DNA from: Mumia xiangluensis
GTDB taxonomy: Bacteria > Actinomycetota > Actinomycetes > Propionibacteriales > Nocardioidaceae
Length of the DNA stretch: 64,000 nt
Assembly: GCF_010994095.1 (NCBI RefSeq)
Contig: NZ_WJYO01000005.1
Span: 310,001 to 374,000, forward strand
Direction: 5' to 3'
This document shows, piece after piece, positions 2,914 through 56,857 of the stretch. Below the pieces are notes generated by a model. It searched no databases, was not told the DNA's origin, and saw nothing but the letters and a program-made list of their open reading frames with translations. Each line of letters starts with the position of its first letter. Position 1 is the first letter of the stretch. Made by a program: the position numbers and the translations under genes.

Positions 2914-3714
2914 TCATCCGTGCGCCGGCTGGCAGCGCGGGCACCAGTAGGTGACGCGCTCGTCGACGTCTCGGGACTGCGTCACGACCGGCGCTCGCCG
3001 CTCCACGCGCGTGCCGCACCGCCGACACGGCTCGCCGCCCCGGCCGTACACCCAGGTGCGCTCGCCGCGGCGGCGTACGCCGGTGGTGACGATCTCGGCG
3101 AAGTCGCGGTTGACGAGCAGCATCCGGCGCGCGGTCCGGATCGTGCGGGCAGGGTCGGGGTCGTCGGCGACCTGCGAGTCCGGGTGGAGTCCGTGCACGA
3201 ACATGATCTCGTTGCGGTAGACGTTGCCGATCCCCGCGAGGTTGGCCTGGTCGAGCAGCGCGTCGGCGAGCCGGCGCCCGGGGTCGGCCGTCAGCCGCCG
3301 CAGCGCCTCAGCCGCATCGAAGTCGGGATCGAGGAGATCGGGTCCGAGGCGTGCCACGACGGCTTCCTCGTCGGCGCGGCTCAGGACCTCGACGACGCCG
3401 AGGGCGAAACCGACGGCCTGGATCTGCTCGGTCTCGAGGACGATGCGCGCCTCGTGCGCCGGGCGGGTCCAGCGTGCACCGAGGTCGTACACCAGCCACG
3501 CACCCTCCATCTTGAGGTGCGTGTGGATGCTGACGTCCTCGCCGACGTGGGCGAAGAGGTGCTTGCCGCGGCTCACCACCTCGTGCACGGTCTCGCCAGC
3601 GAGATCGACGGTCGCGAACGCGGGCACGCGGAAGTCGCTGCGCACCAGGGTCCTGCCCCCGAGAGCACGGTCGAGACGTCGCGCGGTGCGCCAGACGGCG
3701 TCGCCCTCGGGCAC
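2914..3714 (-). CDS. nei2: Endonuclease VIII-like DNA glycosylase
   Basis: This Fpg/Nei-family enzyme (266 residues) removes oxidised bases and cuts the abasic site. After removal of the first residue the N-terminus is Pro-Glu (PEGDAVW), the catalytic pair of the family. A lysine in VSRGKHLF, the helix-two-turn-helix segment (LLDQANLAGIGNVYRNEIMF) and a C-terminal zinc finger (CRRC ... CPRC) are all visible. The GTG start lies 2 nt after the lhr stop (TGACCGTG), so translation is coupled to lhr. Mycobacterium also pairs lhr with a nei gene. The longer reading frame extending to 4797 is antisense shadow inside lhr. Transcription probably starts at the damage-type promoter in front of lhr. Confidence 0.9.
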   Translation of the reverse strand: MPEGDAVWRTARRLDRALGGRTLVRSDFRVPAFATVDLAGETVHEVVSRGKHLFAHVGEDVSIHTHLKMEGAWLVYDLGARWTRPAHEARIVLETEQIQAVGFALGVVEVLSRADEEAVVARLGPDLLDPDFDAAEALRRLTADPGRRLADALLDQANLAGIGNVYRNEIMFVHGLHPDSQVADDPDPARTIRTARRMLLVNRDFAEIVTTGVRRRGERTWVYGRGGEPCRRCGTRVERRAPVVTQSRDVDERVTYWCPRCQPAHG

Positions 3715-3716
3715 GG

Positions 3717-6700
3717 TCAGCCCCGGATGCGCAGGCCGCGCGGTGTCGCGTGGAACCCTGCCTGCGCGAGAGCGTCGCCGAGAGCGGTGCCGAGCACGGC
3801 CTCGCCGTCGGCCTTCTCGACCGTCAGCCGGCCGAGGGCGCCATCGCGTACGGCGGTGGCGAGTGCGTCGATCGCCGGCTGGAGCCGCGCCGCGCCCTCC
3901 GGGTCGTCGAGGTCGTCGAACGTGAGCAGCGTGCGGCCGCCACGCTCGACGTACAGGGAGAGGGCCCCGTCGACGAGGACGACGAGCGCGCCGGCCTTGC
4001 GCCCCGGGCGGTGGCCGCCCGCCGTGACGGGCCAGCCGAGCGCGGCGCCGTACGGGTTGGCAGGGTCGGTCGCGGCGAGCGTGACGGCGCGGCGCTCGGG
4101 GTCGGAGCCGGGCTCGAGCGAGTAGGAGCGGAGGCGGTCGACCGCGCCGGCCGTCGCGAACTGGGCGGCCCCGAGCCCGTCGACGAAGTAGCCGCGTCGT
4201 GCGCGCCCGGCCTCCTCGAATCCGCTGAGCACCTTGTAGACGGCAGCGAACCCGCCGGTCACGCCCTCGCTCACGGCCGTGCCGCGGGTGACGAGACCGT
4301 GGCGCTCCAGGAGCTGCTCGGCGGTCGCGTGCGCACGGACGGTCGGGTTGTCCTCGGGCCGCGGCACGAGCGCCCACCGGCCGCCGACGGTCGGCGGGCC
4401 CGTACGAGTGGGCATCGAGGGACGCGCGAACGAGGGGGCGCGGCGGCCACGGATGCGCGGCGCGCCGCGCGCGGGGCGGTGCGCCGTCCGGCCGGCGCCG
4501 ACGAGGGTGCGTAGCGGTGCGAGCGTGTCGTTGGTGAGGTATCCGGCCCACACCAGGTCCCACAGGGCATCGGCGAGCTCGGTGTCCGGGACCGTCGGTG
4601 CGTCGCTGCCGGTCGCGACGGCGTCCGCGAGCTGGCGGAAGAAGTAGGCGCCGCCGGACTGGACCACGCCCAGCACGGCCTCCTGGAGGGCGGTGAGCTC
4701 GAGCTCGGAGGGCGGCGCGAGGGTCAGGGGGGCGGTGTCGGCGAGGTGAAGCGAGACCCAGCCGTCGTTGCCGGGGAGCGAACCGACCGCCGACCACACG
4801 ACCTCGCCCGCGGCGGTGAGCTCGTCGAGCATCGCGGGGGAGTAGTCGAGGACGCGGGACCGGAGCACCAGCGGCTCCAGCGCGGACGCGGGAACGGATG
4901 CTCCAGCGAGCTGCTCGACCACCGTGACGAGACCGTCGACCCCGCGCAGCCTGCCGCCCACGTGCTGCCAGGCGGGGAGGAAGCGTCCGAGCGTCTCCGG
5001 CGAGACCGGCTCGACCTCCTTGCGGAGCGCGGCCAGCGACCGGCGGCGCAGCCGGCGGAGCACCTCAGCGTCGCACCACTCGGAGCCGCCCGCGCCGGGC
5101 GTGAACTCGCCCTCGGTGACGCGACCCTGACCTGCGAGCCTGCGCAGCGTCTCCGAGACCACCGCGACGCCGAGCCCGAAGCGCGCGGCGACGTCACCGG
5201 CGACGAACGGGGCGTGCGTACGGGCGAAGCGGGCGACGAGGTCGCCGAGCGGGTCCTCCACAGGAGCGACGAACGCGTCGGGGACGCCCATCGGCACCGG
5301 CACACCGAGCGCGTCGCGCAGGCGCCCCGCGTCCTCGACCGCCACCCACCACTGCGCGTCGGCGAAGCTCACGCGCAGCACGCGCCGCGTCTCGGCCAGC
5401 TCGACCAGCCACGCACCGGACTCCGCCGGCTCGGTGCAGCGCTCGGCGACCTCGTCGGACGTGAGCGGCCCGAGGAGCCGGAGCAGGTCTGCGACACCCT
5501 CGACGCCCCGGGCCCGGCGGTCGGGGTCCAGCCGCTGGAGCTCTGCCTCGGTCTGGGCGATCACGGCGGCGTCGAGAAGGTCGCGCAGCTCGGCGCGTCC
5601 CAGCAGCTCCGACAGCAGCGACGAGTCGAGCGAGAGCGCGGCCGCTCGGCGCTCTGCGAGCGGGCTGTCGCCCTCGTAGAGGAATGCCGCGACGTAGCCG
5701 AAGAGCAGCGACTTCGCGAACGGCGACGGCTCCTGCGTCTGCACGTCGACGACCCGCAGCCGGCGACTCTCCAGGTCGCGCATCATCTGCACCAGCGAGG
5801 GGACGTCGTACACGTCCTGGAGGACCTCGCGGACCGTCTCGAGGACGATCGGGAAGGTCGGATAACGGCGGGCGACCTCGAGCAGCTGCGCCGCGCGCTG
5901 ACGCTGCTGCCAGAGCGGGCTGCGACGGCCGGGGTCGCGGCGGGGGAGCAGCAACGCCCGCGCTGCACACTCGCGGAACCGGGCGGCGAACAGCGCGGAC
6001 CCGCCGACCTCCTCGGTGACCAGGTCCTCGATCTCCTCGGGCGTGAACGCGAACAGCTCTCCGCCCGGAGGCTCGGCGTCGGTCTCCGGCAGGCGTACGA
6101 CGATGCCGTCGTCGCTGGCCATGCTCGCGGAGTCGAGGCCGTAGCGCTCTCGCACGCGAGCGCCGACAGCCAGCGCCCACGGCGCGTGCACGGCGAGCCC
6201 GAGCGGCGAGTGGAGGACGAGGCGCCAGTCGCCGAGCTCGTCGCGGAACCGCTCGACCACCAGGAGGGTGTCGTCGGGCACCCGCCCGGTGGCGGCCCGC
6301 TGCTCGTCGACGAGGGCGAAGAGGTTGTCGATCGCGTACGGGTCGAGGCCGGCCGCCTCGCACCGTGCGCGGGCCTCGTCGCGGTCACCGGTGGCCATCG
6401 CGCGGGTGAACGCCCCCAGGGCCCGGCCGAGCTCGATCGGGCGCCCGGGGTTGTCGCCCCGCCAGAACGGCAGGCGGCCCGGCTGGCCGTACGCGGGTGA
6501 CACGAGCACCCGGTCGTGCGTGATGTCCTCGATCCGCCAGCTCGTCGCCCCGAGCGCGAAGACGTCGCCGACGCGCGACTCGTACACCATCTCCTCGTCG
6601 AGCTCCCCGACCCGGGCGCTCCCGCGGGCGGTGGACTCGGCACCGACGAGATAGACGCCGAAGAGGCCGCGGTCGGGGATCGTCCCGCCGGACGTCACAG

Positions 6701-8300
6701 CGAGCCGCTGCGCGCCCGGGCGGCCGGTGATCGTGTTGGCCACGCGGTCCCAGACGATGCGCGGCCGCAGCTCGGCGAACTCGTCGGACGGGTAGCGCCC
6801 GGCGAGGAGGTCGAGCGTGGCGTCGTAGGCGGAGCGGGGGAGCGTGGCGTACGGCGCGGCGCGGCGGACGGTCTCGTACAGGACGTCGACGTCCCACGCC
6901 TCCAGCGCACAGCCGGCCACGACCTGCTGGGCGAGGACGTCGAGGGGGTTCGTGGGGACCTTCAGCTCCTCGATCGCGCCGCTGACCATCCGCTCGATCG
7001 TCACCGTCGCCTCGAGGAGATCGGTGCGGTGCTTCGGGAAGACGACCCCGCGCGAGACCTCGCCGACCTGGTGGCCGGCGCGGCCCACACGCTGCAGCCC
7101 GCTCGCGACCGACGGCGGTGACTCGACCTGGACGACGAGGTCGACGGCGCCCATGTCGATGCCGAGCTCCAGGCTCGACGTCGCGACCACGCACGGCAGC
7201 CTGCCGGACTTGAGGTCGTCCTCGATCAGGGCCCGCTGCTCCTTGCTGACGGAGCCGTGGTGTGCCCTCGCGAGGAGGGGCGACACCCCGGCGGCGGTGC
7301 CGGACTGGCCGGGCGTCGCGGCCGCGGGAGAGCCGGTGTCGGGGAGCTCGACGCCGAGGCGTCCCGCGTGGATCTCGTTGAGCCGTGCCGTCAGCCGCTC
7401 GGCGAGCCGGCGCGAGTTGGCGAAGACGATCGAGGAGCGGGCCGCCTCGACGAGGTCGACGACACGCTCCTCGACGTGCGGCCAGATGGATGCCTGGTCC
7501 CGCGGGTCCGGGTCGTCGTCGCCACCGTCGGAGCCACGCGTCGGGAGGGCCGTCATGTCCTCGACCGGCACCACGACCGAGAGGTCCCAGCGCTTCTCCG
7601 ACTCCGGCGCCACGACACGGACCGGGGCGGCGCCGCCGAGGAACCGCGCGACCTCGGCGTGCGGGCGTACGGTCGCCGACAGGCCGATGCGCTGCGCTGG
7701 TCGCTCGAGGAGCGCGTCCAGGCGCTCCAGGCTGAGGGCGAGGTGCGCGCCGCGCTTGGTGCCGGCGACCGCGTGCACCTCGTCGACGATCACGGCCTCG
7801 ACGCCGCGCAGGGACTCGCGCGCTGCTGAGGTCAGGACGAGGAAGAGCGACTCGGGGGTGGTGATGAGGATGTCGGGCGGGCGTGTCGACAAGGCCCGGC
7901 GCTCGGCTGGCGTCGTGTCACCGGAGCGCACCCCGACCGTCACGTCGCGGGGCGGCTCGGACTCGCCCGACGCGGCGAGGCGCTTCGCGGTCTGCGTGAT
8001 GCCGACCAGGGGGGAGCGGAGGTTGCGCTCGACGTCCACGGCGAGCGCCTTGAGCGGGGACACGTAGAGGACGCGCGTCCGGCGTTTGGCGTCGTCGGGC
8101 TCGGGACCGGTGGTGAGGCGGTCGAGCGCCCACAGGAAGGCCGACAGCGTCTTGCCGGAGCCGGTCGGCGCGACGACGAGAGCATGGTGGCCGTCAGCGA
8201 TCGCGTCCCACGCCCCGACCTGGGCGGTCGTCGGCGCAGGGAAGGCACCCCGGAACCACGCGGCGGTAGCGGGGGAGAAGCGGTCGAGCACGTCGGGCAC
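3717..8300 (-). CDS. lhr: Large ATP-dependent helicase Lhr
   Basis: This 1527-residue SF2 DNA helicase is of the long Lhr class, a 3'-5' translocase linked to DNA repair. The Walker A motif is APTGSGKT (44-51) and the Walker B box is DEVH (173-176). Helicase motifs VSPLKALAVDVERNL, TTPESLF, SSLELGIDMGAVDLVVQ and QRVGRAGHQ follow in order. About 600 further residues form the winged-helix and C-terminal domains characteristic of the family. The GTG start is preceded by only 6 nt of leader behind a CAGGAT -10 box. nei2 follows at once. The length matches the approximately 1500-residue family, with no break. Confidence 0.95.
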   Translation of the reverse strand: MPDVLDRFSPATAAWFRGAFPAPTTAQVGAWDAIADGHHALVVAPTGSGKTLSAFLWALDRLTTGPEPDDAKRRTRVLYVSPLKALAVDVERNLRSPLVGITQTAKRLAASGESEPPRDVTVGVRSGDTTPAERRALSTRPPDILITTPESLFLVLTSAARESLRGVEAVIVDEVHAVAGTKRGAHLALSLERLDALLERPAQRIGLSATVRPHAEVARFLGGAAPVRVVAPESEKRWDLSVVVPVEDMTALPTRGSDGGDDDPDPRDQASIWPHVEERVVDLVEAARSSIVFANSRRLAERLTARLNEIHAGRLGVELPDTGSPAAATPGQSGTAAGVSPLLARAHHGSVSKEQRALIEDDLKSGRLPCVVATSSLELGIDMGAVDLVVQVESPPSVASGLQRVGRAGHQVGEVSRGVVFPKHRTDLLEATVTIERMVSGAIEELKVPTNPLDVLAQQVVAGCALEAWDVDVLYETVRRAAPYATLPRSAYDATLDLLAGRYPSDEFAELRPRIVWDRVANTITGRPGAQRLAVTSGGTIPDRGLFGVYLVGAESTARGSARVGELDEEMVYESRVGDVFALGATSWRIEDITHDRVLVSPAYGQPGRLPFWRGDNPGRPIELGRALGAFTRAMATGDRDEARARCEAAGLDPYAIDNLFALVDEQRAATGRVPDDTLLVVERFRDELGDWRLVLHSPLGLAVHAPWALAVGARVRERYGLDSASMASDDGIVVRLPETDAEPPGGELFAFTPEEIEDLVTEEVGGSALFAARFRECAARALLLPRRDPGRRSPLWQQRQRAAQLLEVARRYPTFPIVLETVREVLQDVYDVPSLVQMMRDLESRRLRVVDVQTQEPSPFAKSLLFGYVAAFLYEGDSPLAERRAAALSLDSSLLSELLGRAELRDLLDAAVIAQTEAELQRLDPDRRARGVEGVADLLRLLGPLTSDEVAERCTEPAESGAWLVELAETRRVLRVSFADAQWWVAVEDAGRLRDALGVPVPMGVPDAFVAPVEDPLGDLVARFARTHAPFVAGDVAARFGLGVAVVSETLRRLAGQGRVTEGEFTPGAGGSEWCDAEVLRRLRRRSLAALRKEVEPVSPETLGRFLPAWQHVGGRLRGVDGLVTVVEQLAGASVPASALEPLVLRSRVLDYSPAMLDELTAAGEVVWSAVGSLPGNDGWVSLHLADTAPLTLAPPSELELTALQEAVLGVVQSGGAYFFRQLADAVATGSDAPTVPDTELADALWDLVWAGYLTNDTLAPLRTLVGAGRTAHRPARGAPRIRGRRAPSFARPSMPTRTGPPTVGGRWALVPRPEDNPTVRAHATAEQLLERHGLVTRGTAVSEGVTGGFAAVYKVLSGFEEAGRARRGYFVDGLGAAQFATAGAVDRLRSYSLEPGSDPERRAVTLAATDPANPYGAALGWPVTAGGHRPGRKAGALVVLVDGALSLYVERGGRTLLTFDDLDDPEGAARLQPAIDALATAVRDGALGRLTVEKADGEAVLGTALGDALAQAGFHATPRGLRIRG

Positions 8301-8306
8301 CCGTCC

Positions 8307-8328
8307 ATCCTGCCTCGCGGCACCGACA
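8307..8328 (-). promoter_or_regulatory. PafBC-type (RecA-NDp-like) damage promoter of lhr-nei2
   Basis: Read on the minus strand: TGTCGGTG (8328-8321), eight bases, CAGGAT (8312-8307), then six bases to the GTG of lhr. The published mycobacterial LexA-independent damage promoter is TGTCRGTG-N8-TANNNT. The upstream box is exact, the spacing is exact, and the -10 differs only in C for T at its first base. The placement implies a leaderless lhr mRNA. The match is seen in the sequence. That PafBC acts here is inference. Confidence 0.65.
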
Positions 8329-8345
8329 GTTGCGGGCGGAGGCCT

Positions 8346-9002
8346 TCAGCCTCGCTTGACCGACGTCCGGATGCGGTGCCACAGGGGGTCCGCCTCGCTG
8401 AGGCCCGACACGATCCGGAGCACGCCACCCATCTGGCCCAGCCCGCACAGCAGGGCGAGGACGCCGACGGCCGCAGCAGCGAGCGTCACCGTGCTGGTGC
8501 CGGTGACCACGTCTCGGACGGCGACGGAGATGCACGCCACGGCGAGCAGCAGCGCGAGCGTGCTGGTCGTCACCCGGACGAAGATGCGTGCCTCGACGTT
8601 CACGGTCCGCGCCCCGAGCCAGCCGGCAGCGGTCCGTGTCCGGCCACTGACCTCGTACGGGAGACGTGTCCACGCCGCGGCGGCCCGGGTGAGCCGCCGT
8701 CCGCTGCGCCACAGCAGGGCCAGGACCGAAGTCCCGGCCAGCCCGATCCCGCCCGCGACCAGCACGGCGACCACGTCGACCAGGTGGACGCCGACGTCGA
8801 GCGCGTACGCGGTGGAGGCGATGCCGAGGGCGGTGAACAGTCCGAGGATCGCCACGACGAAGGCGAAAAGCCCCAGCGACCAGCGCGACCAGCGCTCGTA
8901 GTCGTCACGCAGCTGCGCCGCGGCGCGATCAGCGTCCGCCGGCGACGGCGAAGCGACGTCCAGCCAGGGCAGCGACTCGGGGCGGATCAGGCGGAAGGGC
9001 AT
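8346..9002 (-). CDS. Uncharacterised four-span membrane protein
   Basis: No family is recognised. The 218-residue protein has an N-terminal cytoplasmic stretch rich in charged residues, then hydrophobic segments at about residues 42-65 and 70-97 (LGLFAFVVAILGLFTALGIA; VVAVLVAGGIGLAGTSVLALLW). A basic loop follows, then two more spans (TTSTLALLLAVACISVAV; VTLAAAAVGVLALLCGLGQM). The ATG at 9002 is chosen because TACCGT stands 7 nt upstream, fitting a leaderless start. A GTG three codons earlier is possible. It lies just upstream of lhr on the same strand, with a damage-type promoter between them, so it may be a separate unit. Confidence 0.6.
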   Translation of the reverse strand: MPFRLIRPESLPWLDVASPSPADADRAAAQLRDDYERWSRWSLGLFAFVVAILGLFTALGIASTAYALDVGVHLVDVVAVLVAGGIGLAGTSVLALLWRSGRRLTRAAAAWTRLPYEVSGRTRTAAGWLGARTVNVEARIFVRVTTSTLALLLAVACISVAVRDVVTGTSTVTLAAAAVGVLALLCGLGQMGGVLRIVSGLSEADPLWHRIRTSVKRG

Positions 9003-9009
9003 CGCCGAC

Positions 9010-9015
9010 ACGGTA
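9010..9015 (-). promoter_or_regulatory. Leaderless -10 box (TACCGT) of the membrane protein gene
   Basis: TACCGT on the minus strand ends 7 nt before the ATG at 9002. It matches the TANNNT -10 consensus at the distance expected when transcription starts at the start codon. Confidence 0.45.
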
Positions 9016-9098
9016 GACCACGCTCCGGGTCGCGATCCCTGCCGGACCGCGGTGCGGCGGCCGCCGTTAACGACAAGACAATCGTCGGCGCACCTCCC

Positions 9099-9104
9099 TA
9101 GGCT
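9099..9104 (+). promoter_or_regulatory. Leaderless -10 box (TAGGCT) of the ABC exporter operon
   Basis: TAGGCT lies 6 nt before the GTG at 9111, and no ribosome-binding sequence is present between them. This supports a leaderless transcript for the three-gene operon. Confidence 0.45.
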
Positions 9105-9110
9105 CGAACA

Positions 9111-10037
9111 GTGAGCCAACCGATGATCGAGGCGCAGGCACTGCGCAAGGCGTACGGCGACTTCGAGGCCGTCAAGGGCATCGACGTGAGTGTCGAGCGC
9201 GGCGAGGCGTTCGGGTTCCTCGGGCCCAACGGCGCAGGCAAGTCGTCGACGATGCGCATGGTCGCCGCGGTGTCGCCGCTGACCGGCGGGAGCCTGCGGA
9301 TCCTCGGCCTCGACCCGGAGTCCGACGGCCCGGCGATCCGCGCCCGGATCGGCGTCTGCCCGCAGGAGGACTCGCTCGACGGCGACCTGACCGTCCGCGA
9401 CAACCTCGTCGTCTACGCGCGCTACTTCGGGATCGGGCGTCGCGATGCCGCCCGCAAGGCCGACGAGCTGCTCGAGTTCGTGAAGCTGACCGAGAAGGCT
9501 CACGGCATGGTCGAGGACCTGTCGGGCGGCATGAAGCGACGACTGACGATCGCACGCTCGCTCGTCAACGAGCCAGAGCTCCTGCTGCTCGACGAGCCGA
9601 CCACCGGGCTCGACCCGCAGGCGCGCCACGTGGTGTGGGACCAGCTCCACCGCCTCAAGCAGACCGGGGTCACGATCGTCCTCACCACGCACTACATGGA
9701 CGAGGCCGAGCAGCTGTGCGACCGGCTGGTCGTGATGGACGGCGGCCTGATCGCGGCGGAGGGGTCACCGCTGTCGCTGATCGCGCGCTACTCGACGCGC
9801 GAGGTCGTCGAGCTCCGCATGGGCGTCGGCGAGAACGAAGCCGCGGCCGAGCGCGTCGAGGACCTCGCCGAGCGCGTCGAGGTTCTCCCGGACCGCGTGC
9901 TGCTCTACGTCGCCGACGGCGAGAAGGTCGTCGAGGAGGCGATGGCGCGCGGGCTCGAACCCCGGAGCACGCTCGTACGCCGCTCGTCCCTGGAGGACGT
10001 GTTCCTCCGGCTGACCGGACGGTCGCTGGACGCATGA
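9111..10037 (+). CDS. ABC exporter ATP-binding protein (DrrA-like)
   Basis: This 308-residue ATPase powers an ABC-2-type exporter. It shows Walker A GPNGAGKSS (about residue 39), the Q-loop VCPQEDSLDGDLTV, signature LSGGMKRRL, Walker B LLLLDEPTTGLDP and the H-loop TTHYMDEAEQL. A C-terminal stretch of about 80 residues (from SLIARYSTREVVELRMG) corresponds to the DUF4162-like tail of DrrA-type subunits. The GTG start is supported by the TAGGCT box just upstream. It overlaps the next gene by ATGA, making an operon with two different permeases. The substrate is unknown. Relatives export antibiotics, lipids or polysaccharide precursors. Confidence 0.88.
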   Translation: MSQPMIEAQALRKAYGDFEAVKGIDVSVERGEAFGFLGPNGAGKSSTMRMVAAVSPLTGGSLRILGLDPESDGPAIRARIGVCPQEDSLDGDLTVRDNLVVYARYFGIGRRDAARKADELLEFVKLTEKAHGMVEDLSGGMKRRLTIARSLVNEPELLLLDEPTTGLDPQARHVVWDQLHRLKQTGVTIVLTTHYMDEAEQLCDRLVVMDGGLIAAEGSPLSLIARYSTREVVELRMGVGENEAAAERVEDLAERVEVLPDRVLLYVADGEKVVEEAMARGLEPRSTLVRRSSLEDVFLRLTGRSLDA

Positions 10038-13413: not shown

Positions 13414-13472
13414 TTGACATCGGTTATCACTGTTCAGCATAGTAAACACCGTTAGCGGTGAACAGTGTTAAC
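13414..13472 (+). promoter_or_regulatory. MMPL promoter with candidate TetR operators
   Basis: A TTGACA (13414-13419) and CATAGT (13438-13443), 18 bp apart, form a plausible sigma-70-type promoter for the MMPL gene. Overlapping it, CACTGTTCA (13428-13436) and its exact inverse TGAACAGTG (13459-13467) form a 9-bp inverted repeat. The second arm lies in a 15-bp near-palindrome, GTGAACAGTGTTAAC (13458-13472), with one mismatch. A short CACCG/CGGTG hairpin (13447-13460) lies between. The arrangement fits occupation by the divergent TetR protein. The binding itself is inferred. Confidence 0.55.
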
Positions 13473-13512
13473 ACCTGTGAACGGCATTCACTCACATGAC
13501 GGGGGAAGAACG

Positions 13513-15747
13513 ATGGAACGCTGGGGACGCTTCGTCGCACGACGCGCACGATGGGTGCTCTCGCTGGGGCTGCTGGTCGTCCTGGCTGCCGGGGCGTACG
13601 GGACGGGTGTCTTCGGCGCCCTGAGCGACGGAGGCTTCGACGACCCGGGCAGCGAGTCGTACGCTGCCTCGCAGCTCATCGAGGACAACGTCGGCCGGCA
13701 CGGCGCGGACGTGATCGCGGTGTACGAGAGCAAGGACATGACCGTCGACGACGCGCCGTTCCGCGCCGCTGTCGCCGAGGTCGTCGCAGGGCTGCCGGCC
13801 GATGCGGTGGAGCACGTCGTCGCCTACGGCCCGCCCGGCACCGAGTCGCTGGTCTCCGCCGACCGGCACGCCACGAGCGTCGTGATCACGCTCGCCGGCG
13901 ACGGCCAGGACGCCCAGATGGAGGCGTACGACGAGGTGCGGCCGACGCTCGACACCGCGGCCGTCGAGGACGGGACCGTCGACGTCGACGTGGCAGGGCA
14001 GTGGGCGGTCTTCGACGACGTCAACACCAACGTGTCCGAGGACATCGCGCGCGCCGAGATGCTGTCGATGCCTCTTGTGCTGCTGCTGAGCCTGGTGGTG
14101 TTCGGGTCCGTGGTCGCTGCCCTCATGCCGGTCGGTATCGGGGTCGTCGCCGTGCTCGGAGCCCTGGCCGTGGTGAGGCTGCTCACCACCGTCACCGACG
14201 TGTCGGTGTTCGCGATCAACATCATCACGCTGCTCGGTCTCGGGCTCGCGATCGACTACGCGCTGTTCGTGGTGAGCAGGTTCCGTGACGAGCTGGCCGT
14301 CCGCGGCGACGACCGCGACAGCGTCCGCGAGGCCGTCGCGGCCACGATGCGGACCGCAGGCCGTACGGTCCTCTTCTCCGGCATCACCGTCGCCGTCGCG
14401 CTCTCCGCGATGCTCGTCTTCCCGCAGTCGTTCCTGCGATCCATGGCGTACGGCGGGGTGGCGGCCGTGCTCGTCGCCATGGTGGCGGCGCTGACCGTCC
14501 TCCCGGCGACGCTCGCGGTTCTCGGCCGCCGCATCGAGGCCGGCGCGATGCCGTGGCGGCGCCGTGCCCGTCGTCCGTCCCAGGGATGGGCGCGGTTCGC
14601 GCACGCCGTGATGGCACGTCCGGTCGTGAGCCTGGTGCTCGTCACCGGCGTCCTGCTCGGGCTGGCCAGCCCGTTCCTCAACGTCGCGTGGGGCGGGGTC
14701 GACCACCGGGTCCTGCCGGCGGACGCGCCGTCGCGGGTGGCGACCGAGAAGCTCGAGTCCGACTTCGGGGGAGCGACGTCGCAGGCCGAGGTGTTCCTCG
14801 CGACCGAGGACGAGGCGGACGTCGCCTCGTACGTGGCCGCCCTGAGCAACGTCGACGGTGTGACCCAGGTGCAGCCGGTCGCGAGCACCAGCGACGGGGC
14901 GGGCTCGGCGGCCGACGGGGGTGCCGCCGAGCCCGGCACGTTGATCGACGTGGTGTGGGACGGGTCCGCCCAGAGCGGGGAGTCGCGAGACCTGGTGCGC
15001 GACCTGCGCGCCGTGGACGCACCCGCCGACGCCTACATCGGGGGCACCTCGGCGGAGACGGTCGACATGCTCGACACGATCGCCGACCGGTTGCCGCTGA
15101 TGGTCGGGCTGATCGTGGTGGCGATGCTGGTCCTGCTGTTCGTCGCCTTCGGCTCGGTCGTGCTGCCGATCAAGGCGGTGCTCGTCAACATCGTCTCGAT
15201 CACCGCCGCATTCGGCGTCGTGACCTGGATCTTCGCCGACGGACACCTCGAGGGCCTGCTCGGGTTCACCTCGCTCGGCTACCTCGACGGGACGCAGCCG
15301 ATCCTGATGTTCGCGATCCTCTTCGGGCTGTCCATGGACTACGAGGTGTTCCTGCTGTCGCGGATCCGTGAGCAGTGGGACGCTACGGGCGACAACGAGG
15401 TCGCGGTCGCCACCGGGGTCCAGAAGACCGGGCGCATCATCACGAGCGCCGCACTGCTGCTGGCCGTCGTGATCGGTGCGTTCGCGACGTCGGGGATCGT
15501 CTTCATGAAGATGCTCGGCGTCGGGATGCTCGTCGCGCTGCTCCTCGACGCCACGCTGGTCCGACTGGTGATGGTGCCGTCGACGATGAAGCTGCTCGGC
15601 CGCTGGAACTGGTGGGCGCCGGGGCCGATGCGCCGGTGGTGGGAGCGGTACGGCGTGCGCGAGGGCGCCTCTGAGCCGGCTGCCGTCGTCAGCGGCGACG
15701 GTGCCGAGGGCGGCGACGAGGAGCGCTCCCGCATACTGGCCCGGTGA
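13513..15747 (+). CDS. MMPL/RND-type membrane transporter
   Basis: This 744-residue member of the MMPL (RND superfamily) exporters has the classical double layout: one N-terminal span, a large extracytoplasmic loop, five spans, then a repeat of the same. The proton-relay signatures are GLGLAIDYALFVVSRFRDE in the first half and FGLSMDYEVFLLSRIREQW in the second. The protein ends with a short charged tail. The ATG at 13513 follows GGGGGAAG and is preferred to an upstream in-frame ATG at 13465 that lies within the operator region. MMPL pumps export lipids, siderophores or drugs. The cargo is not evident, and no biosynthetic genes are adjacent. Confidence 0.88.
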   Translation: MERWGRFVARRARWVLSLGLLVVLAAGAYGTGVFGALSDGGFDDPGSESYAASQLIEDNVGRHGADVIAVYESKDMTVDDAPFRAAVAEVVAGLPADAVEHVVAYGPPGTESLVSADRHATSVVITLAGDGQDAQMEAYDEVRPTLDTAAVEDGTVDVDVAGQWAVFDDVNTNVSEDIARAEMLSMPLVLLLSLVVFGSVVAALMPVGIGVVAVLGALAVVRLLTTVTDVSVFAINIITLLGLGLAIDYALFVVSRFRDELAVRGDDRDSVREAVAATMRTAGRTVLFSGITVAVALSAMLVFPQSFLRSMAYGGVAAVLVAMVAALTVLPATLAVLGRRIEAGAMPWRRRARRPSQGWARFAHAVMARPVVSLVLVTGVLLGLASPFLNVAWGGVDHRVLPADAPSRVATEKLESDFGGATSQAEVFLATEDEADVASYVAALSNVDGVTQVQPVASTSDGAGSAADGGAAEPGTLIDVVWDGSAQSGESRDLVRDLRAVDAPADAYIGGTSAETVDMLDTIADRLPLMVGLIVVAMLVLLFVAFGSVVLPIKAVLVNIVSITAAFGVVTWIFADGHLEGLLGFTSLGYLDGTQPILMFAILFGLSMDYEVFLLSRIREQWDATGDNEVAVATGVQKTGRIITSAALLLAVVIGAFATSGIVFMKMLGVGMLVALLLDATLVRLVMVPSTMKLLGRWNWWAPGPMRRWWERYGVREGASEPAAVVSGDGAEGGDEERSRILAR

Positions 15748-20502: not shown

Positions 20503-20518
20503 TCGAACACGTGTTCGG
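20503..20518 (+). promoter_or_regulatory. LexA (SOS) box of recA
   Basis: TCGAACACGTGTTCGG matches the actinobacterial SOS box TCGAAC-N4-GTTCGA at all but the last base. The inner 14 bases (20504-20517) are a perfect palindrome. It stands 133 nt before recA, the usual place of the LexA-controlled promoter. Confidence 0.88.
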
Positions 20519-20585: not shown

Positions 20586-20607
20586 TGTCGGTGCCGGTCC
20601 CTACCGT
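20586..20607 (+). promoter_or_regulatory. PafBC-type LexA-independent promoter of recA
   Basis: TGTCGGTG (20586-20593), exactly eight bases, then TACCGT (20602-20607) fits the RecA-NDp consensus TGTCRGTG-N8-TANNNT in full. It lies between the SOS box and recA, the same dual arrangement described for Mycobacterium tuberculosis recA. Confidence 0.75.
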
Positions 20608-20651: not shown

Positions 20652-21758
20652 ATGGCTGCTGACCCGGGCAAGGGCGCACCGAAGGACCGCGACAAGGCAC
20701 TCGACGCCGCGATGGCGCAGATCGAGCGTTCGCACGGCAAGGGATCGGTGATGCGCCTCGGTGAGCGCGGCAAGATCCCGATCGAGGTCATCCCCACCGG
20801 GGCGACCTCGCTGGACATCGCTCTCGGCATCGGCGGGCTCCCGCGTGGCCGCATCGTCGAGATCTACGGGCCGGAGTCCTCCGGCAAGACGACGGTCGCC
20901 CTGCACGCGGTGGCCAACGCCCAGCGCGCCGGCGGCATCGCGGCGTTCATCGACGCCGAGCACGCGCTGGACCCTGAGTACGCGAAGGCCCTCGGCGTCG
21001 ACACCGACGCGCTCCTCGTGTCGCAGCCGGACTCCGGTGAGCAGGCGCTGGAGATCGCCGACATGCTGATCCGGTCGGGCGCGCTCGACATCATCGTCAT
21101 CGACTCCGTCGCGGCGCTCGTGCCCCGCGCCGAGATCGAGGGCGAGATGGGCGACAGCCACGTCGGTCTGCAGGCGCGCCTCATGAGCCAGGCGCTGCGC
21201 AAGCTCACCGGTGCGCTCCACGGCGCAGGCACGACCGCGATCTTCATCAACCAGCTCCGCGAGAAGATCGGCGTCATGTTCGGCTCGCCGGAGACCACGA
21301 CCGGCGGCAAGGCGCTCAAGTTCTACGCCTCGGTCCGTCTCGACGTCCGCCGCATCGAGACGCTCAAGGACGGCACCGACATGGTCGGCAACCGCACCCG
21401 CTGCAAGGTCGTCAAGAACAAGATGGCCCCGCCGTTCAAGCAGGCCGAGTTCGACATCATGTACGGCCAGGGCATCAGCCGCGAGGGCAGCCTCCTCGAC
21501 GTCGGCGTCGATGCGGGCTTCGTCCGCAAGGCCGGCGCCTGGTACACGTACGAGGGCGACCAGCTCGGCCAGGGCAAGGAGAACGCCCGCAACTTCCTGC
21601 GCGACAACCCCGACCTCGCCAACGAGCTCGAGAAGCGCATCATGGAGCACCTCGGCATCGGTGCCGCGGTCGACGAGCCGGCTGAGCCTGCGGTGACGCC
21701 CGCGGCTGCTGGAGCGGCCAAGGGCGCCAAGGCCGAGAAGGCCACGGTCGACTTCTGA
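20652..21758 (+). CDS. recA: Recombinase RecA
   Basis: This is the central strand-exchange protein of homologous recombination, and it also triggers LexA self-cleavage. The 368-residue product has Walker A GPESSGKT (73-80), Walker [13 protein letters not shown], loop L1 [10 protein letters not shown], loop L2 [25 protein letters not shown] and the usual acidic/alanine-rich C-tail. No intein is present, unlike M. tuberculosis RecA. recX starts 2 nt after the stop. Two control signals precede it, an SOS box and a PafBC-type promoter. The ATG follows GAAGGGA at about 20638. Confidence 0.98.
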
Positions 21759-30044: not shown

Positions 30045-30205
30045 AGGGGAACGACACTCCGGTGCTAGCCAGGCACGCACTCGCCCGGGGGTTGTTGTCA
30101 GAACGTGACCGCGCGATTGGTTGCGGCCCAGAAGGCTCCGGTGTCGGTATCGGGCCTCGCTGACCCCGGTGTGTGGGATGTTTCCGGCACCAGAACCGAG
30201 GTTCC

Positions 30206-56734: not shown

Positions 56735-56857
56735 TCAAACATATGTTCGATCCGCGTGTCGGACGCGACGCGTCGAAAGAATGTTCGAACGGGTCCTTCA
56801 AAAGTGTCAGCGGATGTGGTTATGTTCGTACGCATGTTCGATCGAACGCGTGTTCGG
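56735..56857. promoter_or_regulatory. Cluster of four LexA (SOS) boxes
   Basis: The boxes are TCAAACATATGTTCGA (56735-56750), TCGAAAGAATGTTCGA (56773-56788), TCGTACGCATGTTCGA (56826-56841) and TCGAACGCGTGTTCGG (56842-56857). Each differs from TCGAAC-N4-GTTCGA at one base. The last two touch end to end. The first controls lexA, the others most likely the LysM gene. Confidence 0.82.

Follow-up and report, generated by a model that had tools for sequence, protein, structure and literature searches.

The gene pair lhr-nei2 of Mumia xiangluensis is preceded by a box, a spacing and a leaderless geometry that are conserved before lhr far beyond chance, and the element formed by them is, with high probability as judged from the sequence comparisons, a PafBC-dependent promoter of the RecA-NDp type that would drive a leaderless lhr-nei2 mRNA. 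The site lies on the reverse strand of the 64,000-nucleotide stretch of DNA that was analysed (the window) and consists of the PafBC-type box (-26 element) TGTCGGTG at 8321..8328, which is an exact match to TGTCRGTG, followed by an 8-nt spacer, CCGCGAGG, at 8313..8320, the -10 element CAGGAT at 8307..8312 and a gap of 6 nt, GGACGG, at 8301..8306, the spacer and the -10 element being read directly from the DNA. The predicted transcription start (+1) is then the G of the GTG codon at 8300. The first-pass annotation had described the box, eight bases, CAGGAT, six bases and the GTG of lhr in this order, and its description proved exact on re-reading; both the box and the 8-nt spacing of the RecA-NDp/PafBC consensus that it invoked are present, and the TANNNT form of the -10 element is absent at lhr, its place being taken by CAGGAT. 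If leaderless transcripts are recognized by a -10 element ending 6-7 nt before the start codon, then lhr, with its 6 nt, has the arrangement of such a transcript.

The gene lhr (3717..8300, reverse strand, GTG start) encodes an Lhr helicase of 1527 aa, as identified by Pfam (DEAD, Helicase_C, DEAD_assoc, WH_Lhr and other domains) and NCBIfam (NF007284, 1804.9 bits). Its frame has an in-frame stop 45 nt 5' of the GTG at 8300, and there is no alternative ATG or GTG codon between this stop and that GTG. The start codon of nei2 (2914..3714, reverse strand; GTG at 3714) lies 2 nt past the lhr stop, and its product, which begins VPEGD, is assigned by Pfam and NCBIfam as an endonuclease VIII of the Nei2-like type; it has the domains H2TH, Fapy_DNA_glyco and zf-FPG, and its best NCBIfam match is NF040775 (Nei2) with 327 bits, below the 400-bit cut-off of that family, for a scanned stretch that lacked the first codon.

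The conservation of the site was examined in three sets of lhr loci, which overlap and each of which contains related species. For the class set, an even draw of 118 genomes, 97 showed an lhr match at E 1e-45 or better and 96 loci were read, one match that began at a contig end being left out, whereas a locus cut before its upstream region (in G098) was scored as a miss. The complete arrangement, viz. a box that deviates at no more than one position, N8, NANNNT, 6 or 7 nt and a start codon, is present in 60 of these 96 loci, and the number of loci is 40 for a perfect box, 60 with up to one mismatch and 72 with up to two; the TGTC core is in place in 77. Permuted boxes that were placed in the same geometry, with one mismatch allowed, gave a mean of 0.19 loci and a maximum of 8, the four highest-scoring permutations all beginning with TGT. 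With two mismatches the permuted mean is 3.59 and permutations near to the real box reach 70/96, and because of this no weight is given to the counts with two mismatches. When the spacer was varied from 4 to 12 nt over the 96 loci, the site was found 60 times at N8, once at N7 and at no other length. The gap between the -10 element and the start codon is 6 nt in 47 and 7 nt in 13 of the 60 sites, and even NANNNT alone, scored over all 96 loci for gaps of 0-15, occurs in 71 of them with a gap of 6 and in 21 with a gap of 7, compared with 2-9 for any other gap in this range. In loci that encode an Lhr with an extended N-terminus, the site is shifted upstream together with the start codon.

Similar results were obtained with the other two sets. 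For the order-level set, 58 genomes were searched and the best 30 loci were taken; of these, 23 combine the 6/7-nt gap with a box in which no more than one base deviates, and 28 have the TGTC core; in the set of named relatives (the best 80 loci of at least 592) the corresponding numbers are 54 for the box and 63 for the core. The latter set includes 24 Streptomyces lhr loci, of which 23 carry the box, and no record in it is labelled S. venezuelae. Of the class loci, 36 of 96 fail the one-mismatch test and 19 of 96 are without the TGTC core in place; the failing loci include near misses (a gap of 8 or 9, a spacer of 7 or a change in the first T), ambiguous starts and the one locus cut by a contig end. 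Further, three loci belonging to a single genus (L134, L155 and L175; g43) have a TGTCAC variant of the box upstream of lhr at the same spacing, and a variant of the box resembling this one has been reported for M. tuberculosis (PMC8151990, accessible part).

According to the first-pass annotation, the first base of the -10 element was the sole difference from the consensus. As a comparison of CAGGAT with TANNNT this is correct; however, it should not be interpreted as a defect of the site, as a base other than T is the conserved state at this position. In the 60 class sites the first base is C in 44, G in 12, A in 4 and T in none, while position 2 is A and position 6 is T in all 60 and position 5 is either A or C, the variants found including CACGAT, CACCAT, GATGAT and CAGACT. 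The same type of pattern is seen before a ligB-like gene for an ATP-dependent DNA ligase, where the site (L157, G000:C2:189222-189243) has the leaderless PafBC-type layout of lhr: in 20 of 30 ligB loci (37 genomes with a match out of 44 searched) the box is present at gap 6 or 7, and the -10 element of these 20 sites begins with C in 13, G in 5, A in 2 and T in none. Since T is found at 0/60 lhr and 0/20 ligB sites, lhr departs as a rule from the TA at -10 that is printed in the M. tuberculosis forms of the motif (PMC8151990, as far as its text is accessible). The lhr site would thus act like a PafBC promoter and in all probability is one, with a -10 element of variant form.

The conserved CAGGAT, and the AGGA within it, could instead be read as the Shine-Dalgarno site of a leadered mRNA, as AGGA lies 7 nt before the GTG in the window and one of the words AGGA, GGAG or GAGG is present at -16..-5 in 22/60 class loci, in comparison to 3/60 in a control region 28-40 nt above the box. 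However, in the remaining 38 of the 60 loci no such 4-mer is present, the TGTC box stands at a constant distance of 8 nt, and the columns are conserved in a different manner, with the A of position 2 and the T of position 6 invariant, an A or C at position 5, and the four variants noted above occurring in place of an AGGA-containing hexamer. Based on this column conservation, the Shine-Dalgarno reading was rejected and is considered highly improbable.

With CAGGAT taken as a -10 element, the sequences around it fit the PafBC mechanism, as a -35 hexamer and an SOS box are both lacking: a TTGACA match with at most 2 mismatches at spacers of 16-18 is present in just 1 of the 60 class lhr loci (the other 59 have at least 3 mismatches), and GAACN4GTTC is present within -250..+60 of the box in 0 of 60. 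In the window, the best match to an SOS box in 8291-8600 has 2 mismatches and is about 250 nt from the box. The description of the promoter as LexA-independent in the earlier annotation is therefore upheld, and control of lhr by LexA was rejected. Work on mycobacteria has indicated that PafBC is activated by ssDNA, that PafB binds the -26 motif with its HTH and that PafC uses its own HTH to contact SigA at domain 4 (PMC11804915, accessible part). By analogy with that work, on which the ssDNA sensing, the sigma adaptation and the damage induction postulated for this genome all depend, DNA damage would give rise to ssDNA, which would activate the PafB/PafC pair encoded elsewhere in the genome, and PafBC may then enable the housekeeping RNA polymerase to use the TGTCGGTG box instead of a -35 element. 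The polymerase would next open the weak CAGGAT element and begin transcription at the predicted start, so that the lhr-nei2 mRNA would be leaderless, its first base being that of the GTG codon of lhr, and nei2 would be closely coupled. The identification of the element as a PafBC-type promoter, already made in the first-pass annotation, is upheld by the excess of class loci (60/96 against a permuted mean of 0.19), by the presence of a PafB/PafC pair in the genome, and by the reported induction of lhr-nei2 by PafBC in mycobacteria (PMC11323726, accessible part).

Another explanation is that lhr is transcribed mainly by read-through from an upstream gene, with the PafBC site being minor or a relic. 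An ORF on the same strand (8346-9692) does end 45 nt before lhr; however, it has no Pfam match and its GC3 is 0.81 versus 0.94 for lhr, due to which it may not be a gene, and the promoter before lhr is conserved across the class. Read-through as the main source of lhr mRNA is therefore regarded as very unlikely.

The regulator required by the PafBC reading is encoded in this genome within a run of genes of one orientation, viz. pafA, an FKBP-like gene, pafB, pafC, tatA, tatC and a helicase gene, and the PafB and PafC proteins match the chains of the solved PafBC entries 7p5x, 9fnd and 6sj9, with best E values of 2.7e-60 and 7.8e-47. Among the class genomes, 109 of 118 have a PafB match, whereas the same query found none in the family of G085, for which 8 genomes were searched, 5 with a completeness of 90% or more, and where a search for PafC gave two weak matches only (E about 5e-5, 26-29% identity). 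An lhr match is present in 6 of these 8 genomes and the placed box is absent before all 6 loci, two stray octamers with one mismatch being located 272 and 324 nt upstream of lhr without the geometry; in 4 of the 6 (L270-L273), CACCAT is present 6/7 nt before the lhr start and the box is gone. This pattern is consistent with a loss of PafBC in which the core promoter was retained, as read from the sequences of one family and thus representing a single evolutionary loss. In two other genomes, G124 (91% complete) and G072 (78%), there is no PafB match, yet the box is present with 1 and 2 mismatches, respectively, and 17 of the 19 class genomes that are without the placed TGTC core do have a PafB match. 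It could also be proposed that the box is read not by PafBC but by a ClgR/ClpR-like factor, whose action on the RecA-independent P1 promoter has been discussed, with citation of another paper (accessible part of PMC5656591). However, a cryo-EM complex places PafB on the -26 motif (PMC11804915, in the part available), and the placed box before lhr is absent in the one PafB-less family described here, so that recognition by a ClgR-like factor appears very improbable.

The claim of the first-pass annotation that the motif occurs twice in 64 kb, both times before repair genes, requires correction. The pattern TGTCRGTG-N8-YANNNT is found three times in the window, in comparison to 0.03 matches expected from shuffled sequences, and the third match (14201..14222, forward strand), besides those at lhr and recA, is within an ORF for an MMPL-family transporter (13465-15747) and is probably due to chance, so that the argument against chance is weaker than had been stated. 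The genome-wide scan that was suggested in the same annotation gave 25 matches, 5 of the TANNNT and 20 of the CANNNT form, and is favourable for the first form and less so for the second. With TANNNT, 6 matches were obtained over spacers of 1-16, 5 of them at N8 and 1 across the 15 other spacers, and this form is thus specific for N8. With CANNNT, there are 20 matches at N8, against an average of 9.0 for the spacers that share its codon phase, an enrichment of about 2-fold, and perhaps half of the CANNNT matches are hence background; many of the intragenic ones are likely to be due to chance. As the variable-gap CANNNT search returned 18 of the 20 known N8 matches, missing 2, its counts at other spacers may run slightly low.

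These numbers also bear on the possibility that the lhr site itself has arisen by chance, TGTCGGTG being common in GC-rich coding DNA and a relaxed -10 element making matches easier. The genome-wide count (20 compared with about 9 expected) and the intragenic match in the window are consistent with this, and due to the approximately 2-fold enrichment the lhr site considered by itself is weak evidence. However, the site is secured by its conservation and by its fixed distance from the start codon, and the permutation result for the class set (60/96 versus a mean of 0.19) is decisive for lhr; chance was rejected as its origin and can be regarded as a negligible prospect.

The importance of the position is also seen in the genome as a whole, where 8 of the 25 sites are exactly 6 nt (5 sites) or 7 nt (3 sites) before the start of an ORF when ORFs that encode 100 aa or more and have a GC3 of at least 0.80 are considered and gaps of 0-15 are scanned. 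The remaining gaps in this range account for 3 matches in total, 2 of which are second starts of genes already counted. The 8 sites precede lhr, the ligB-like ligase gene, and genes for a sigma-70-family factor, a DUF222 protein, a rhodanese, an EamA transporter, a SnoaL-like protein and one protein without a Pfam match, several of these starts being uncertain as the frame stays open upstream. Before the sigma-70-family factor (L165, G000:C3:231027-231048), TGTCAGTG-N8-CAGGAT is located 6 nt before the ATG, and the protein has a SnoaL-like tail, for which the domain score is just under the cut-off. Longer distances between the -10 element and the start codon are found for recA (44 nt), a glyoxalase-like gene (30 nt) and a glycosyltransferase gene (71 nt), the latter enzyme being one that we take to be MshA. 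The other 14 of the 25 sites are mostly within ORFs.

The recA gene (20652..21758, forward strand; TIGR02012, 565.9 bits) has the second PafBC-type site of the window, TGTCGGTG-N8-TACCGT at 20586..20607 (forward strand), 44 nt before recA, and a SOS (LexA-type) box, GAACACGTGTTC, at 20505..20516 (forward strand) further upstream. It had been claimed that lhr-nei2 is under the same control as recA, and this is correct in so far as a PafBC-type site is present at both; however, the recA region additionally has the SOS box and its start is 44 nt past the -10 element, and since lhr is without a SOS box, its control is not identical to that of recA. Among the 30 best recA loci from 108 genomes with a match, GAACN4GTTC is upstream of recA in 28, and the PafBC-type box with at most one mismatch is present in 20, the -10 element beginning with T in all 20. 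In 23 of these 30 loci lhr is within 13 kb of recA on the same contig, as is the case in the window. An in-frame ATG or GTG is found 8 nt past the -10 element, upstream of the usual RecA start, at 11 of the 20 recA sites (L241, L244-L249, L253, L256, L266 and L269). Two further SOS-like GAACN4GTTC palindromes are present in the window, at 30193-30204 and 56844-56855, the second of them among several GTTCG/CGAAC words.

The differences between these sites could be interpreted as indicating two grades of PafBC promoters. If a -10 element beginning with a base other than T is poorly used by itself and is locked to the start codon, then strict dependence on PafBC and leaderless translation would both follow. 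In such a scheme, a TANNNT grade shared with LexA (recA) would be distinguished from a grade with a non-T -10 element 6-7 nt from the start (lhr and ligB), which would be strictly PafBC-dependent and leaderless, also during damage, and whose start codon and promoter would move together in evolution. This proposal is tentative, and we consider it somewhat more apt to be wrong than right. The contrast in leaders with recA is less clear than that in the -10 elements because of the in-frame starts at 11 of the 20 recA sites, and three leaderless-looking sites in this genome (L001, L158 and L169) have TA at -10, which counts against it. If it is true, then motif searches that require TA would miss the non-T grade, and this could explain why the M. 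smegmatis motif seemed, in an initial search, to lack conservation in S. venezuelae (PMC9380542, accessible part). The fixed geometry and the non-T -10 element also offer a testable idea of what makes a promoter strictly dependent on PafBC and its mRNA leaderlessly translated.

Irrespective of this proposal, the results presented here link lhr-nei2, an operon for crosslink repair, to the damage response that is independent of LexA well beyond mycobacteria, including Streptomyces, and the fixed leaderless geometry together with the non-T -10 element constitutes a sharper search pattern for this regulon. The control of lhr-nei2 by PafBC is already published for mycobacteria. No description of a leaderless, non-T geometry at lhr across the class came to light in a search to which subscription journals were mostly inaccessible, and this geometry is apparently unreported. 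Relative to the mycobacterial lhr-nei2, the present genome belongs to the family Nocardioidaceae and its -10 element begins with C, and the accessible text of PMC11323726 makes no mention of a leaderless geometry for lhr. The RecA-NDp promoter is said to occur in other actinobacteria as well (PMC8223512, accessible part) and such promoters are described in Streptomyces (PMC5087735 and PMC2375139, accessible parts). The recA P1 promoter (RecA-NDp) of S. rimosus, which is quoted as TTGTCAGTGGCN6TAGggT (PMC2375139, as accessible), and that of mycobacteria are of the same class as the lhr site in their box and spacing; however, recA P1 has a T at the start of the -10 element (20/20), a SOS box (28/30) and, in the window, a start 44 nt away, and the lhr site differs from it in all three respects. 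Lastly, the Streptomyces macrodomain gene SCO6735 has a RecA-NDp promoter and is induced by UV (PMC5087735, accessible part), and it thus provides a non-mycobacterial example of the promoter type proposed for lhr, although the gene under its control is a different one.
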